Positions 23,560 through 32,779 of a DNA stretch of 36,795 bases are shown here, piece after piece; the stretch's first letter is position 1; each line of letters opens with the position of its first letter. This DNA comes from Verrucomicrobiia bacterium. GTDB lineage: Bacteria > Verrucomicrobiota > Verrucomicrobiia > Limisphaerales > UBA11358. The notes under the pieces were generated by a model. That model searched no databases. It had not been told where the DNA came from and saw only the letters and a list, made by a program, of their open reading frames with translations. A program made the translations under genes and the position numbers. Location of the stretch: assembly GCA_030038175.1 (NCBI GenBank), contig JASHPN010000291.1, positions 1 through 36,795 on the forward strand. Reading direction: 5' to 3'.

Positions 23560-26500
23560 TTATGGACTTGTCACACGATAAAATTCCGTCGGGTTGGTCG
23601 CCTCGAGGCCGGTAAAACTGTAGGTGCCGGCGGGCGATTCCGTCGGATGGCCAAGGTTTTGCCAGGCGCCCAACAGATTGGTCGAGCCCCAGAGGGTAAA
23701 GCTGGCTCCGGATACGTTTGTGAACGTAAGCGACGCAAGCCCGCCGCTCAATTGCAGGGCATTGCTCAAATTCGGCCGCGTGACCGGCGCCGTGGCAAAT
23801 ACCAGGGTCGCACCGGAAACGCCCGCCACTGAATTCGAGGCGGTAATTTGATATTGATAGAATCCCGGAGCCAATCCGGCGAGCGATGCACTGACAATTT
23901 CCGGGCTGCTGCCGGACGCCAATACGTTGGTAACCGTTTCGTTCGTCGTGGCGCCGACCGGACCGTAGCTGAACCAGTACTTCGTCGCACTGCCATTCGG
24001 ATTTATGAAGGCGTTAAGGGTCGCTCCATTCGCGGTAAGTGACGATACCGGCCAGGTAGCCACCAACGGAGCGCCTGGAATGGCCAACGGCGCAAACGCG
24101 ATGCCCTTCAGAGTGGCGCCGGCGGACGTGGTATAGAGCAGGTTGGTTGCGGTGATATTGATGGGCTGGTTCCATCCCCCGGAATCATGAACGTGGATGA
24201 CGCTGTTGCCGGCCGAGCCGCCGCTGCCGGTCGTGTAATAAAGATCAGCGCCGCCGCTGACGTTGGTCACCGCACAAAAACCGACGCCGCCATTCGGGGT
24301 CGGCCAACTGCCATCCGTTGTCGCGTAGGTGCTGCCGGCATTTACCCAGATGGGCTGTCCCGTATTGGGATCGTACGTGCCGGTAAAATAATACTTGTAA
24401 ATTGCGCCGGATGTGGTGTTGGTGCCGTCAATGTAATAAGCGGTGTCATAATTCGTCCCGTTGTTTCCCGACCGCAGCATGTAGAAATCCAACACGCTGC
24501 CATTCGTCGGAAATCCTTCCAAAGGAAAGAGGAACTGGAGGCCGCTTGAAGGCGACGGTACGATCGCCAGGACGGTCGAGTTCGGGTCCGTGCCGCCTTC
24601 CTGTTGCAAGGCATAGACCACGCCGCCAAAGGCCTTTAGCCCTCGAACATTGGCAGGATTGTTTGTTGAGTACGGAATATAAGCAGTGTTTGAATTGTCG
24701 CCGTTCGTATAGACCCCGCCTTTGTCACCCATGAAATAAGTCACGTCATCAATGGTCGCGGCGCTGCGCGCCTGATCCGCAGTGCTGCCTCCCAATCCAA
24801 CGTAGGTGGTCGCCAGATTAAACTGGCCTCCGACATTAATCGTTCCGGCTCCGCGCGGATTAATGGTGGTGACATCGGAAACCGTGGAGTCTCCACACAG
24901 CGCCGCGGTGAAGCACAAGAGTGTTCCGTCCTGGCTGTCGGACAGGTCGCCCGTCGAACCGGAGCTGCTTTGGCGCAGGTAATTCGATCCGGTGGAAGTG
25001 GCGGGAACCGGGATGGTATTCACCGGCACGGACTGGTCGGAAATGGTCGGACTCAATTCAAGGATGCTGAAGGTCGAGTTGGCCGAGGCCACGTCTTCCT
25101 GTTCAACCGCCAGATTTCCCGGGGTGAACCCCGCTGCCGCCGGCGCGGGAATATTAAAGGCCGCCGAATTGGTCATGGTATAGGCCAGATTCAAATTGGT
25201 TATGCCGCTGGCCGTAAAGGTGACGGTCGCGCCGGAAACGGCCCCCGGGCTGATGGCCGACAAATTGGTAAAATAGACCGCGCCGCCCGCCAGGGTTTGG
25301 CTGGGAGCGCTGCCCCCGCCAAAAGTCCATCCGGCACTGGGCGCCGCCGTGAAGGTGGCCGTGCCATTCGTCGCCACATTATTGTATTGGTCATAGAGGG
25401 CCAGGGCAGGCTGTGCGACCAGCGTGCCGCCATTTCCGGTAGGCGCCACCGGCTGCGAGGTGATGACCAGGCTTGTTGCTGCGCCGGGCGAAATGGCCTG
25501 GGCATACAGGTCCGCGTTGTAGTTGGTTGCGTTAATCGTAATGTTGAGCGTGCCGGCCAATTCCAGCAGAGTCGAGGCGGACGGAATGAAGACGATCTGG
25601 CCGGCCGATACCACGTACGCCGTGTTCGTAAGCGTCGTGCCATTGACCTTGATGCCGGACAGATTGTTGCGCCAATTGGCGTTGTCAGTAAATGTATTAG
25701 TGAAAGGACCATCCACCGTGGCAACCGGAGCCGGAGTGATAACGGGCGGAGTCTCTTTCTGGGCAGTGGCGACGCCGATGATGTAAATGTTGTCAAAGCG
25801 CCAGTTGCCCGACGTGTTGTTCAGCGCCGTTCCAGTGCCATTGATGCAGGACGCCCCCGTGGAAGCGTTCACCATCCTGACGGCAAAATTGGGATTGCTG
25901 GCCGCCAGAGGATCGGTAATAACGACGGACAGGTTGGTAAACCATTGCTGTCCGTTCGAATAGGGAACGGCGCTTACGAAATAGCCCTGAACGGAATTGG
26001 AATCGAAATTGGCGGAATCGGCGGTATTATTGGAAAAATTCAAATAGGTTTCGGCCTGGGCGGCGGGGATCGTGATCGGAAGATTCGACCAATTGATGCC
26101 GTCCACGGTGTATTCAAATTGAAGGTTCGCTTCACCCTGTTTGGTCAAATACCAGTCGAACGCGACCTGAATATTGGTGAAACCCGTCGTATCCACTGAG
26201 AATTGCGCCCCCTGGCTGCCGATCGGCGCCGTGCTTGTCCAACCGTTGACGCTCGAGCCGGGCCCGTTGCCACGAATGCGCCAGATCTGGGTATAATTGG
26301 TAATTCCATCCGAACCGGTATCGCCGGTCGCGCCCTGGGTCACGTCAGGACCATTGGTTGTTCCTGAACCATAGAGTTGCATGCCGATGCATGCGGCGGA
26401 AACCGCCCCTATGGCATTGTTCAAAGACGGGGCCGGGTCAGGTGTGATTTGTTGGGGCAGCCCCTCAAAATTCCATTCGACGATCGGCTCGGGAGGGGCG

Positions 26501-27285
26501 GGCGGCACAGGCATATTGGTGCCGGTAATCAGGATGTTGTCATAACGCCAATTGCCGGAACTGTTATTATAGATGCCGCCGGTTTGATTGCTGCAGGAAG
26601 TTCCCGTGGCGGCATTGACGATTTCGATGGCAAAATTTGGATTGTTGTCCACGGCGGGAACACCGGACAAATCAACGGTAAAATGATTATACCAGCCCCC
26701 GCCACTTATGTTCAATTGCATATAGGGCCCCATGATGATTTGGGATTGAGAACTATTGTTCTGGGCTGCGGCCCCATTGGTATTGGAAACGATCGCGGCA
26801 TCGGTCCAGGTACCGCCGCCATCGGTGGTGTACAGGCAGGCGACCAGGCCTTCCGCCGCTGAGGTCGTGTATAAATCAAATGATACCTGGATATCTCCAT
26901 TTCCCGCGGTGCTGGCCGCAAATTCGGCGCCCTGGGTGGCAATCGGAGCATTGGTTGACCAGCCGTTGGGAGTGCCGGCGCCGCCGGAAACGCTGCCGCC
27001 GCGGATGCGCCAGCCGTAAGAGCCTGAGCCAGTGGAAGCGCCGGCGGTGGACAAAATATCCGCGTAGGCAAGACTGGGGGTCGTACCGTCATTGTAATCG
27101 TTGGTCATCCCCAGCACAGTCGCACTGCCGGCTCCAATAACGGGCTCGGGACTGTTACTGTTGCTATACAATCCCGGATCGGTTTTGAGATTGTCAAAAT
27201 CCCAATCCGCAATGGTATTTGTTTGGGCCTGGCTCGTAATGGCCGTGAAGAGGGCAATGCCTGCTGCGATGATGGTTTTTTTCAT
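23560..27285 (-). CDS. Very long secreted/cell-surface protein (1241 aa) with duplicated N-terminal module and C-terminal ...FYRVTSP domain
   Basis: Signal peptide MKKTIIAAGIALFTAITSQA; two related modules each ending SGNWR(Y/F)DNI(L/Y)I(T/I)G; Ig/Fn3-like segments; uninterrupted ORF. Confidence 0.85.
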   Translation of the reverse strand: MKKTIIAAGIALFTAITSQAQTNTIADWDFDNLKTDPGLYSNSNSPEPVIGAGSATVLGMTNDYNDGTTPSLAYADILSTAGASTGSGSYGWRIRGGSVSGGAGTPNGWSTNAPIATQGAEFAASTAGNGDIQVSFDLYTTSAAEGLVACLYTTDGGGTWTDAAIVSNTNGAAAQNNSSQSQIIMGPYMQLNISGGGWYNHFTVDLSGVPAVDNNPNFAIEIVNAATGTSCSNQTGGIYNNSSGNWRYDNILITGTNMPVPPAPPEPIVEWNFEGLPQQITPDPAPSLNNAIGAVSAACIGMQLYGSGTTNGPDVTQGATGDTGSDGITNYTQIWRIRGNGPGSSVNGWTSTAPIGSQGAQFSVDTTGFTNIQVAFDWYLTKQGEANLQFEYTVDGINWSNLPITIPAAQAETYLNFSNNTADSANFDSNSVQGYFVSAVPYSNGQQWFTNLSVVITDPLAASNPNFAVRMVNASTGASCINGTGTALNNTSGNWRFDNIYIIGVATAQKETPPVITPAPVATVDGPFTNTFTDNANWRNNLSGIKVNGTTLTNTAYVVSAGQIVFIPSASTLLELAGTLNITINATNYNADLYAQAISPGAATSLVITSQPVAPTGNGGTLVAQPALALYDQYNNVATNGTATFTAAPSAGWTFGGGSAPSQTLAGGAVYFTNLSAISPGAVSGATVTFTASGITNLNLAYTMTNSAAFNIPAPAAAGFTPGNLAVEQEDVASANSTFSILELSPTISDQSVPVNTIPVPATSTGSNYLRQSSSGSTGDLSDSQDGTLLCFTAALCGDSTVSDVTTINPRGAGTINVGGQFNLATTYVGLGGSTADQARSAATIDDVTYFMGDKGGVYTNGDNSNTAYIPYSTNNPANVRGLKAFGGVVYALQQEGGTDPNSTVLAIVPSPSSGLQFLFPLEGFPTNGSVLDFYMLRSGNNGTNYDTAYYIDGTNTTSGAIYKYYFTGTYDPNTGQPIWVNAGSTYATTDGSWPTPNGGVGFCAVTNVSGGADLYYTTGSGGSAGNSVIHVHDSGGWNQPINITATNLLYTTSAGATLKGIAFAPLAIPGAPLVATWPVSSLTANGATLNAFINPNGSATKYWFSYGPVGATTNETVTNVLASGSSPEIVSASLAGLAPGFYQYQITASNSVAGVSGATLVFATAPVTRPNLSNALQLSGGLASLTFTNVSGASFTLWGSTNLLGAWQNLGHPTESPAGTYSFTGLEATNPTEFYRVTSP

Positions 27286-27578: not shown

Positions 27579-28445
27579 ATGATTGAGGCAAAAAAAGTAA
27601 ACCCTAAGAAACCTGCCAGTGAAAACGGATTCACTCTAATTGAACTCCTCGTCGTCATCGCCATCATCGCGATTCTCGCGGCCGTCCTTCTGCCGGTGCT
27701 AAATCAGGCGGAAGTCAGGGCGCAGGAGGTCGCCTGCATGAACAACATGAAACAATGGGGCGCGGCCAATTCGATGTATGTGGATGACAATAACCAGGTA
27801 TATCCCTGGCCACGATTCCAGGTCAGCAGCACTGCCGAACAGGACAATCCAACCTGGGAACAGGTCATCGAGCAATATGATGCCGGCGAGAAAGACGATA
27901 TTTGGTTTAACGGACTCCCCAATTACGTCGGCAACCAGCCGTTGTATTGGTGGGCCGACCCTGCCCGCACCGCCAACTATGCCGTAGGCAAAACCATTTT
28001 TATTTGTCCACGCGCCGCCGCCCTGGGCATCAACCCGGCGGATGCCAACGCAAGCACGGGAGACATGCTCCCAAATCAACGCCCGCTCTTTCAATACTCG
28101 ATGAACTCCAAATCCCTGGCCAACGAGAGTTCCACGGCCATTCTCAAAACCCAGATCATCAAGAACCCTGCCGCCTTTGTCGTATTTTCAGACGTCCGCT
28201 ACCGGTCGGATGACCTCCCTTATTATGGCACCACGCCCGACGACCTGGCCACCCCGCACTGCTATACCACGCGGTTCTCCGCCCGCCACAACCAGGGCGC
28301 CAATATCACTTTCGGCGACGGACATGCAGCCTACTACAAATACCAGTACGTCGTCGCCGGTCCCAACAGCACCGCTACTACACCCGGGCATGATCCGGGT
28401 GATTGGGACATCAATTGGGATTGCAGCGGCATCACCGTGCCGTGA
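27579..28445 (+). CDS. Type II secretion pseudopilin-like protein (prepilin N-methylation motif, H-X9-DG C-terminus)
   Basis: [49 protein letters not shown]. Confidence 0.92.
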
Positions 28446-28487: not shown

Positions 28488-29606
28488 GTGATCCGCAACA
28501 TCATTTTTGACTGGTCGGGTACGCTCGTGGACGATCTGCCCGCCGTCCTCAAGGCGTCCAATTTCGTCCTCGTGCAAGCCGGCAAGGCCGAAATGTCGCT
28601 CGAACAATTTCGCGCCGAATTTTCCCTTCCCTTCGTCCGCTTTTACGATCGTCATACGCCGCACGTGCCCATGGAACAGCTCGAAGAATGGTTTCACGCC
28701 GAGTTCAAGCGCGCCCAAACCTCCGTCTGCGAGCTGCCTCATGCCCGCGATTTCCTCGAATTTTGTCGCGCCCAAAAAATGCGGATGTTTGTCTTGAGCA
28801 GCGTTCATCAGGACCATTTTGCGGTGCAATGCGGCGTCACCGGCTTTGACGCCTTCCTCGAAAAGCCCTACACCGGCGTCGCGGATAAACGGGAAAAAAT
28901 CCACGAAATCCTCCGCCAACACCGATTGGACCCGGCCGAAACCCTGTTCATCGGCGATATGGAGCATGATATCGAGACCGCCCGGCACGGCGGCGTTCAG
29001 TCCTGCGCCGTCCTCACCGGCTACAACACGCTGGAACAATTGCGCGCCGCCAAACCCGATTTGATCGTCGAACATCTTTCCGAGTTGCGCGACGTTCTGG
29101 AGCAAAATAACCTGGATTTGAAACCCCGGGATTCCGGCAAGCCGGAAAATCCTCGATCTTCGGTCTTCCATCCTCGTGTGCCGCTCGCCACCGTCGGCGC
29201 GCTCATTTTCAATTCCAAAAACGAGGCGCTGATGATTCGCACCCACAAATGGTCGAATCTCTGGGGCATTCCCGGCGGAAAAATCAAATTTGGGGAAACC
29301 GCCGATGCCGCCCTGCGCCGGGAAATCCTCGAGGAAACCGGCCTGAAAATTTCAAAGATTGAATTTGTCCTCGTCCAGGATTGCATCCATTCAAGGGAAT
29401 TTTACCGCGACGCCCATTTTGTTCTTTTGAACTACATCTGCCGCTGCCCCGCAAAAACTCCCCGCGTCAGATTGAACGACGAAGGCCGCGAATTTCGCTG
29501 GGTCAAACTGGCCGAAGTCAAAAAAATGAAACTGAATAAGCCGACCCGGATCCTGGTCCAGGCCGTCCTGAAAAGCCAAAAACGCAAATCCCGAATCCCG
29601 CGGTGA
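28488..29606 (+). CDS. HAD-superfamily hydrolase / NUDIX hydrolase fusion
   Basis: HAD: IIFDWSGTLVDD, FVLSSVHQDH, TLFIGDMEHDIETARHGG. NUDIX box: GGKIKFGETADAALRREILEETGLKI. GTG start. Confidence 0.9.
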   Translation: MIRNIIFDWSGTLVDDLPAVLKASNFVLVQAGKAEMSLEQFRAEFSLPFVRFYDRHTPHVPMEQLEEWFHAEFKRAQTSVCELPHARDFLEFCRAQKMRMFVLSSVHQDHFAVQCGVTGFDAFLEKPYTGVADKREKIHEILRQHRLDPAETLFIGDMEHDIETARHGGVQSCAVLTGYNTLEQLRAAKPDLIVEHLSELRDVLEQNNLDLKPRDSGKPENPRSSVFHPRVPLATVGALIFNSKNEALMIRTHKWSNLWGIPGGKIKFGETADAALRREILEETGLKISKIEFVLVQDCIHSREFYRDAHFVLLNYICRCPAKTPRVRLNDEGREFRWVKLAEVKKMKLNKPTRILVQAVLKSQKRKSRIPR

Positions 29607-29950
29607 AAATCTCCATTGTTGATCTCGAGGTGTCGTACTGCGTCGGGGTGCCGGACGAAGAGCGGGCCAAACCGCAGCGCCTGCTCTTGACCGTCGAAAT
29701 GGAATCCGATTTTTCCGCCGCGGCCAGGTCCGATTCCATCCGTGACACCATTGATTATTTTGCCGTTTCCCGGCGGCTGCTCGGATTCGGGGACGGACGA
29801 AGCTGGAAATTGATTGAAAAGCTCGCCGCCGATCTTTGCGATATGGTCCTGGCCGAATTCAGGCCCAAAAGCGTCCTGATCGAAGTGAAAAAATTTCCCA
29901 TTCCGGAGGCGCGATATGTTTCAGTCACGATGAATAAAAGAGGAGCTTGA
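29603..29950 (+). CDS. folB: Dihydroneopterin aldolase FolB
   Basis: KISIVDLEVSYCVGVPDEERAKPQRLLLTVEME...DTIDYFAVSRRLL...IEKLAADLCDMVL...SVLIEVKKFPIPEARYVSVTM; 4-nt GTGA overlap with the upstream gene. Confidence 0.88.
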   Translation: MKISIVDLEVSYCVGVPDEERAKPQRLLLTVEMESDFSAAARSDSIRDTIDYFAVSRRLLGFGDGRSWKLIEKLAADLCDMVLAEFRPKSVLIEVKKFPIPEARYVSVTMNKRGA

Positions 29951-30043: not shown

Positions 30044-32779
30044 TTGAGTATTATCGTGAAAATAGCCGCCTGCTTGTCGCTGGCGAGCCTGGTCGCCGGG
30101 TTCTGCTGTCCGGCGGGCAACGCGCAGATCATCTATTCCAACGCCTTTAACGGCGCGGCGGCCACCCTGAACGGAACCGCGCCAACGCTGGCCAACGGTC
30201 TCGCCGGCGGGGTTCAATCCGCGCAGTGGACCTGCACCTATACCAACGGCATGGACGGGACCGTTCTGGCAAATGGCGCCCTGGGCACCAACGCAGGATC
30301 CGTGCTCCTGCCGTTCACGCCGCAGTTGGGTTGCATTTATACTATGACCGCCTCACTCACGGTGCCGGCATCCATGTCCGACTGGGTCGCGATGGGTTTT
30401 GCGCAATTCAACACACAAACCAATAATCCGGGTTACTCGCGGTTCACTGACAACCCTCCGGATGGCTATGGATGGATCGATGCGAGCACCGGCGGCAGCG
30501 ACCAATTGTTCGGAGGTCCGAAAACGTCCGTTGGAGCGACCCCCGCTTCCGTGGCGTTGCCGAGTGCGGGAACCTACACCCTTCAGATCATCTTGAATAC
30601 CGTCGGTACTCAATGGACGGTCTCGGCCTATGTCAACGGCACTCAAATCGGCACCAACATCGTCTATGGCACAAATCCCACCATCGCTTATGCCGGGATT
30701 GGGCAAAATCAGTTCGCCGCAGGTTCCCTGGGAATTCAATGGAATTATTGGTCGTTGTCGGTCACGCAGGAGCCGACGCTGACAACCAACCTTTGGGTCG
30801 CTCCCGCGGCGGAGGGCGCGGGCGACGGCTCGGTGCCCAGCAACGCGGCTTACTATCTCAATGCTTCTTTCTGGAGCGGGGTCGCAAATGAAATTCAGTC
30901 CGCAAACGTCACCGTCAACTTCCTAAGCGGCGCATACAACGCCGGCAGTCTAAACCTGACGAACATGGGCAACCCCCAGCATCCGTTGGCGCTTGTGGCG
31001 AAGACGCCTCAAGGCCCCATTTTCAGTCCCTCCGCCAATATCTTTCAGTTATACGGATGCCAATACTTCGAAATCAACGGCCTGGTGTTCAACGGCCCTT
31101 CGCCCTATTGGGGAATCTACTGCATCCCAAATGGCTCCATGTCGTGCCGAAATATCGAAATCACCAATTGCTGGTTTTTAAACCTGACGAATGCCTATTA
31201 CGCGGCCATTGGACTGCTCAATGGAACGAGGAGCGTCCAGGTGCTCGATTGTAATTTCACCAATATCACCGCCGGCGATCATCAACACATGATTTATGCC
31301 CCGCACGATATCGAGGACGTGGTGGTTTCAAACTGCGTCTTCCAGGATTGCGACGCGGATTATGTGCGTTTCCGGGATGATTCGGAATATTGCGTGGTGC
31401 AGGATTGCACGTTCATCAGCACGATGGCCGCGTCCGGGTGGCCTTTTGTCAGCGCGGAATTGTACAATGAAACAAACTCCGATTCCGTCCGTGATGAATT
31501 CTTCGGGACTTATTTTCAGGTCTGCAGCAATTCGTTCATTTACGAAGCGGGAGGCGGTTCAGGGCCTTACTCCGGATTGCACTTCAGCGATACCGGCTGG
31601 TCGCCCCAAAGCTACGATTGCGACCTGACCACATCGCAAACCAACCAGTTGATCACCGGCGCCGTTGCCTCCCAGCAAGCGTTTATGGAAACCAATTTCG
31701 GCATTACCGCTTCCGACATCAAAATGTTCGGGAACACCTACTCGGGAGCGTCCTATCACCTGGACTATCAATATGTTTGGGACGGCAGCGCCCCTTATAA
31801 CAACTGGCAGGGCACCATTGGCCTCAACAACGTGGCCGATTCGAGCGGCGCGCTGATGGGACCGCCCCCGGTGATGCGTAACAGCAACTTCGACCGGCAA
31901 GGGCTGCTGCTGGCGCCGATTTCGCCCGGCGACGATGATTATGAGTGTCTGTTTCGCAACTGGCAGTGCAGCCCCAAATATACGGACATCCTTTTGTCAT
32001 CCAACTTTTATGGGACGAATAATGCCTTGCGCTTTGATAATACAAAAAGCCAGTACGCGTATCAGTGGATTTCCCCGCCCGGTCCGAACTGGACGATGGA
32101 TTTCCTGTTCGCCATTGGCTCGTCCTTCACCGGGACGGGCACAAAATTCCAGTTGGACCTCATCCATAACGACGTCACCGGCAGCAAACTCTCGCTGGGC
32201 GTGGACAACCTTGGCCGGTTCGGCATTTACAACGGCAGCACGTTCACCGTCCTGCCCGGGCTTGGCGCCGTGTCTTTCTCGACGGACAACACCGGCGATG
32301 GCACATACACCGATCCCAGCGATGTCCTGAACGTCTATCACCTGCGCATCGTCGGCAATTATTCCGCTTCCACGCCTTACGTGAGCCTTTACGCCAGTGA
32401 CGCCAATTCCATGGCATTAGATCACCAGGCCACGGGCCTGAGTTATTGGGTGGGCAGCAGTCCCGTCAGCGGCCAATCCAGTCCGGAAACGGCGATCTTC
32501 TACAATTACACGGCCCCCGTCTTGATCGGCCAAATCGTCTTTACCGAAGGAATCCCGCCCGCCCTCGCCGGCGCGTCGGTCCAGGGAAATAATGTCATCC
32601 TAAGCGGAACCGATGGCTCCGCCAACGCCGCCTATTACGTCCTCTCCTCCACCAACGTCACCGTGCCCCTGGCCGACTGGACCCGCGTGAGCACCAACAC
32701 GGTCTCCGGAAACAATTTCTCCATCACGAACCCCTTGCCCGCCTCGCCGCAGACGTTCTACAGCTTGCAGCTTCAGTAA
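30044..32779 (+). CDS. Secreted right-handed parallel beta-helix protein
   Basis: Signal peptide (likely GTG start 30056); beta-helix repeats (FEINGLVFNG, CRNIEITNCWFLNLTN, VQVLDCNFTNIT, VVVSNCVFQDCD, CVVQDCTFIST); C-terminal STNVTVPLADWTRVS...FYSLQLQ. Confidence 0.85.
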   Translation: MSIIVKIAACLSLASLVAGFCCPAGNAQIIYSNAFNGAAATLNGTAPTLANGLAGGVQSAQWTCTYTNGMDGTVLANGALGTNAGSVLLPFTPQLGCIYTMTASLTVPASMSDWVAMGFAQFNTQTNNPGYSRFTDNPPDGYGWIDASTGGSDQLFGGPKTSVGATPASVALPSAGTYTLQIILNTVGTQWTVSAYVNGTQIGTNIVYGTNPTIAYAGIGQNQFAAGSLGIQWNYWSLSVTQEPTLTTNLWVAPAAEGAGDGSVPSNAAYYLNASFWSGVANEIQSANVTVNFLSGAYNAGSLNLTNMGNPQHPLALVAKTPQGPIFSPSANIFQLYGCQYFEINGLVFNGPSPYWGIYCIPNGSMSCRNIEITNCWFLNLTNAYYAAIGLLNGTRSVQVLDCNFTNITAGDHQHMIYAPHDIEDVVVSNCVFQDCDADYVRFRDDSEYCVVQDCTFISTMAASGWPFVSAELYNETNSDSVRDEFFGTYFQVCSNSFIYEAGGGSGPYSGLHFSDTGWSPQSYDCDLTTSQTNQLITGAVASQQAFMETNFGITASDIKMFGNTYSGASYHLDYQYVWDGSAPYNNWQGTIGLNNVADSSGALMGPPPVMRNSNFDRQGLLLAPISPGDDDYECLFRNWQCSPKYTDILLSSNFYGTNNALRFDNTKSQYAYQWISPPGPNWTMDFLFAIGSSFTGTGTKFQLDLIHNDVTGSKLSLGVDNLGRFGIYNGSTFTVLPGLGAVSFSTDNTGDGTYTDPSDVLNVYHLRIVGNYSASTPYVSLYASDANSMALDHQATGLSYWVGSSPVSGQSSPETAIFYNYTAPVLIGQIVFTEGIPPALAGASVQGNNVILSGTDGSANAAYYVLSSTNVTVPLADWTRVSTNTVSGNNFSITNPLPASPQTFYSLQLQ

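Follow-up and report, generated by a model that had tools for sequence, protein, structure and literature searches.

In folate synthesis, the removal of the last phosphate from dihydroneopterin monophosphate (DHNMP) is a step of the textbook pathway that is usually written as 'non-specific phosphatase', without an assigned gene, and the gene for the hydrolase of dihydroneopterin triphosphate (DHNTP) is unknown in many bacteria. A 2007 survey named no gene for the DHNMP step, which it ascribed to a non-specific phosphatase, and recorded FolQ as missing in most genomes (PMC1971073). The stretch of DNA analysed here (the window; 36,795 nucleotides from a Verrucomicrobiia bacterium) contains a gene in which a HAD domain and a Nudix domain are fused immediately before folB. 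This locus raises the question of whether the two steps from DHNTP to dihydroneopterin are carried out by one protein, as an initial annotation had proposed.

The presence of both domains in a single open reading frame was borne out by Pfam, with both models matched far over their cut-offs (Table 1): HAD_2 (PF13419) was found at residues 5-175 with E=5e-19, and the NUDIX match (PF00293) scored 77 bits against a cut-off of 21.1. The AlphaFold model of the fusion protein has a mean pLDDT of 92.3, and disorder is confined to the linker (residues 216-229). The best Foldseek matches of the N-terminal half were the phosphoglycolate-phosphatase-like HADs 2hsz, 2ah5 and 3mc1 (probability 1.00), and the C-terminal half matched Nudix enzymes including NudI (6dt3) and Ndx1 (1vc8). 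The Nudix box, which had been described as complete, reads G264-x5-E270-x7-R278-E279-xx-E282-E283, with no variation at its catalytic positions among 39 homologues; box and fold together place this half in the Nudix superfamily. The reported 4-nt overlap was also found, the TGA of the fusion gene lying at 29604-29606 and the GTG of folB at 29603-29605.

Table 1. Features of the HAD-Nudix fusion gene and folB in the window (aa, residues of the fusion protein).
Feature	Position	Strand	Description
HAD-Nudix fusion ORF	28488-29606	+	GTG start, 372 aa; candidate two-step enzyme from DHNTP to dihydroneopterin; order-wide conservation
HAD domain	28500-29099	+	aa 5-204; HAD-IA, helical cap, phosphoglycolate-phosphatase-like fold; PF13419, AlphaFold, Foldseek
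HAD motif I, D8-W-S10-G-T12	28509-28523	+	Ser where a second Asp is usual
HAD motif III, Lys134	28887-28889	+	Invariant, 134/134
HAD motif IV, G156-D157-M-x-H160-D161	28953-28970	+	G, D, M, H and D invariant, 134/134
Interdomain linker	29106-29177	+	aa 207-230; pLDDT <50 at aa 216-229
Nudix hydrolase domain	29187-29549	+	aa 234-354; PF00293 E=2e-21; Foldseek
Nudix box, GX5EX7REUXEEXGU	29277-29345	+	aa 264-286; catalytic positions invariant, 39 homologues
Stop/start overlap GTGA, fusion gene/folB	29603-29606	+	4 nt; sequence
folB, dihydroneopterin aldolase	29603-29950	+	PF02152 E=4e-23; sole copy found in genome

The HAD half has the fold, cap and motifs of the HAD-IA group (D8, S/T104, K134, D157 and D161, with PF13419 and TIGR01549 above cut-off), and departs from it at the second Asp (D+2) of motif I, which is Ser in all 134 class members. 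In most HAD phosphatases this second Asp is the general acid/base; it is absent from phosphonatase, P-type ATPases, haloacid dehalogenases and some sugar phosphatases. The motif had been read correctly as DWSGT (D8-W-S-G-T) in the initial annotation, which cautioned that the HAD might be atypical. The missing second Asp stands, but the motif proved to be a clade-invariant signature in a domain with its nucleophile Asp, Lys and motif IV Asps intact: DWSGT occurs in 134/134 class members, in contrast to DWNGT in all seven of the nearest outside HADs, and the same 134 all keep Asp8, Lys134 and G156-D157-M158-x-H160-D161. Since DWSGT is invariant and the other catalytic residues are intact, the substitution is an old family trait and not a sign of decay, and a degenerate HAD was ruled out. 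The Ser would also suit a HAD half with little or no catalytic activity, whose part would be that of a scaffold or partner for FolB or the Nudix half; however, with Asp8, Lys134, Asp157, His160 and Asp161 invariant in 134/134 and the second Asp likewise missing from the nearest outside HADs, such a role is highly improbable. In an active enzyme, other residues, perhaps Ser10 or the invariant His160, may replace the second Asp, and His160, which is common to the class HADs and the nearest outside HADs, is our suggestion for the proton-transfer substitute. With a family profile, members score at least 252 bits and the nearest other HADs at most 106, and the family is coherent and class-specific. 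The DWNGT-bearing outside HADs (L218-L224), which also carry the motif IV His, have no folB within 3 kb; they and the DWSGT HADs possibly belong to a wider family without the acid/base Asp.

The HAD-Nudix fusion is a core gene of its order. Present as one copy in the window genome (5.39 Mb, 92% complete), it was matched in 258 of the 293 genomes of the order and, whole or in part, in 162 of 236 sampled genomes of the class. Of the 80 nearest named loci, 76 have folB downstream of the fusion gene; in 54 of the 76 the spacing falls between -23 and +30 nt, and one value of -357 nt is probably due to a frameshift. The close spacing is conserved among relatives, whereas the exact 4-nt overlap is not. 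No third operon partner as constant as this pair was found across the 80 loci, and therefore the upstream prepilin gene, which is not a constant neighbour, looks incidental. That gene (27579-28445, +) ends 42 nt upstream of the fusion gene and encodes a prepilin-type protein that carries the N-terminal methylation motif PF07963 and is weakly similar to DUF1559. Two further ORFs, at 23560-27285 (-; 1241 aa) and 30044-32779 (+; 911 aa), flank the folate pair and have signal-peptide-like N-termini.

The most telling evidence comes from outside the window. Across the class, HAD-FolB is the constant link and the Nudix half comes and goes. Among 40 class loci fetched beyond the order, the HAD is fused in frame to FolB, without Nudix, in seven (L140-L144, L153 and L155); another 21 have folB in the same locus (about 0.8 kb away in L167), ten have the HAD without a nearby folB and two had no room. 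All five of the HAD-FolB fusions that were scanned with Pfam contain HAD_2 and FolB in one ORF with strong E-values, and the fusions retain the conserved acidic, Tyr and Lys residues of FolB. Chance or a single-genome artefact is ruled out by the order-wide conservation together with the HAD-FolB fusions in single-contig genomes. In one family in which the HAD lies away from folB (f68), FolB is fused behind a circularly permuted YpsA SLOG domain: the ORF L265:1417-2385 (-) contains both PF12694 (E=7e-52) and PF02152 (E=6e-24), and the N-terminus of L270:1450-2385 (-) resembles it. On a quickly built tree of 142 HAD domains, which has some long branches and SH-aLRT as its sole support measure, the HAD-FolB fusion requires about three changes, at least two of them on well-supported (starred) branches, and Nudix presence requires 13, at least seven of them on such branches. 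These counts by themselves do not separate Nudix gain from loss; the simplest reading, in which the direction is inferred, would be an ancestral HAD-Nudix gene beside folB from which Nudix was lost repeatedly, in some cases so that the HAD ended up joined to FolB. HAD-only and HAD-FolB genomes gave no ortholog of the Nudix half (best 37-45 bits, against 196-216 in true members), which rules out a separate Nudix ortholog in the HAD-only genomes. Lineages that have the HAD and lack this Nudix half show that the halves can be separated, and there the first step must be carried out in another way.

By the classical Rosetta-stone argument, the repeated fusion to FolB predicts that the HAD carries out the DHNMP phosphatase step, for which it is a strong candidate. 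The specificities of Nudix and HAD enzymes are poorly predicted by sequence, and NudI, the best structural neighbour of the Nudix half, might point to a nucleotide-pool or sugar-nucleotide hydrolase that is co-transcribed with folB and has no role in the pathway. However, the recurrent in-frame HAD-FolB fusion and the class-wide linkage would be hard to explain without a functional link, which makes this explanation quite improbable. The mobility of the Nudix half also bears on the division of labour, as the HAD half could be the essential enzyme that strips all DHNTP phosphates alone, with the Nudix half accessory or housecleaning. HAD and FolB remain linked where Nudix is absent, the Nudix half is without an ortholog in HAD-only genomes, and HADs lacking the acid/base Asp fit substrates with good leaving groups, to judge from other HADs. 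Nevertheless, this division is unlikely: conservation of the Nudix half is close to that of the HAD half, its box is invariant and its position ahead of folB is kept through much of the class, and HAD-only genomes may employ an unrelated Nudix enzyme.

FolE2 and FolK are present in the window genome and in all relatives searched; FolE was not found in the window genome. One contig (C338; L284) carries the genes for both FolE2 and FolK, separated by about 3 kb in which a LytB/IspH homologue is located. FolB, single-copy in the genome, exceeds the cut-offs of PF02152 (82 against 31.8 bits) and TIGR00526 (68.6 against 45.05 bits), and scores 64.3 bits with the equivalog TIGR00525, for which the cut-off is 72.15. 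The sole PTPS carries the QueD-type motif Cys-x-x-x-His-Gly-His, so that there is no sign of a PTPS-III bypass of FolB. There are seven Nudix matches in the window genome. A standalone NudB was not recognised among the four other Nudix proteins scanned in this 92% complete genome (best 31 against 103 bits, with the weaker matches L185 and L186 outside the scan); one of the four passes a MutT cut-off. The Nudix half itself scores 27.6 bits with the NudB equivalog NF006961 (cut-off 103) and is no closer in sequence to NudB than to other Nudix families; in our reading, it may act like a DHNTPase while lying outside NudB by sequence. Homology was not informative about the Nudix substrate, in line with the separate positions that DHNTPases occupy in the Nudix tree (PMC5389931).

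The initially proposed role in the steps from DHNTP to dihydroneopterin gains much stronger support from comparative genomics than the one locus gave it, through the conserved folB linkage, the recurrent HAD-FolB fusions and the presence of FolE2, FolK and FolB, with the NudB equivalog and PTPS-III unseen. With a probability of roughly 0.6, the fusion protein acts in folate synthesis as a bifunctional pterin hydrolase, the substrates being inferred from context. FolE2 would make 7,8-dihydroneopterin triphosphate, from which the Nudix half would strip pyrophosphate to leave DHNMP; the HAD half would then take off the last phosphate, and FolB, from the overlapping downstream gene, would cleave the dihydroneopterin to 6-hydroxymethyl-dihydropterin for FolK. 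The HAD step, just before FolB, is the better supported half of the proposal. More tentatively, the class-specific DWSGT family might be a dedicated DHNMP phosphatase that works without the second Asp, the motif IV His perhaps acting as the acid/base; joined several times to FolB, and also to a DHNTP-hydrolysing Nudix domain, it would make up a three-step pterin module in a large part of the class.

The substrate of canonical FolB is dihydroneopterin free of phosphate, and the order HAD-Nudix-FolB of domains and genes does not decide whether the HAD acts before or after it. If the FolB of this clade cleaved DHNMP directly, the HAD half would act afterwards, on the released glycolaldehyde phosphate or on phosphoglycolate derived from it. 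The nearest curated models to the HAD half are phosphoglycolate phosphatases, which act on a two-carbon phosphate, and an archaeal PTPS-III is annotated as 'dihydroneopterin monophosphate aldolase' (quoted in PMC5041015). However, all phosphoglycolate phosphatase scores are far under the equivalog cut-offs (NF009695, 59 against 225 bits; TIGR01449, 56 against 180 bits), and this, together with the canonical substrate of FolB, makes action after FolB improbable.

Several observations stand against the bifunctional reading. Judged by sequence, neither domain is closest to a known pterin phosphohydrolase, and Ser takes the place of the usual general acid/base Asp of motif I; the HAD is also away from folB in the ten class loci noted above. 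Furthermore, FolB is kept in 22 of 31 sampled genomes lacking the HAD, often in a divergent form with a FolK-like ORF directly downstream; FolB thus does not strictly co-occur with the HAD, which is not universally needed, and other phosphatases can do the job. The FolBs of such genomes (L246, L248, L251, L252, L255 and L257-L262) score 46-64 bits with the profile of HAD-linked FolBs, which themselves score about 117-150 bits with it, suggesting two FolB types in the class. Some genomes lack both HAD and FolB (e.g. G378 and G071), which fits a loss of the folate pathway.

Compared with known systems, the HAD half resembles the phosphoglycolate-phosphatase-like HAD-IA enzymes (2hsz, 2ah5 and 3mc1) in its fold, helical cap, motif I nucleophile and motifs III and IV, but differs in having DWSGT in place of DxDGT, in falling under the cut-off of every equivalog and in its linkage to folB. 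Phosphonoacetaldehyde hydrolase, with DWAGT as motif I, lacks the acid/base Asp as the HAD half does, but the match is weak (26.5 bits against a cut-off of 220) and the gene context is different. The Nudix half shares with E. coli NudB and L. lactis FolQ the Nudix fold and box and the proposed reaction, and like L. lactis folQ it is linked to folate genes; unlike these enzymes, it is fused to a HAD, and its NudB score is far under cut-off. A literature search, with most subscription papers outside its reach, found neither a paper that assigns a gene to the DHNMP phosphatase nor one that describes a HAD-FolB fusion. A fused FolQ-FolB of Parachlamydia is listed in Table 2 of the 2007 survey (PMC1971073), and in it, as at the locus described here, a Nudix DHNTPase candidate is physically tied to FolB; however, the fusion marked there is limited to FolQ and FolB, with no mention of a HAD phosphatase. 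The tie between Nudix and FolB has a precedent in Parachlamydia, whereas that between HAD and FolB appears to be new.
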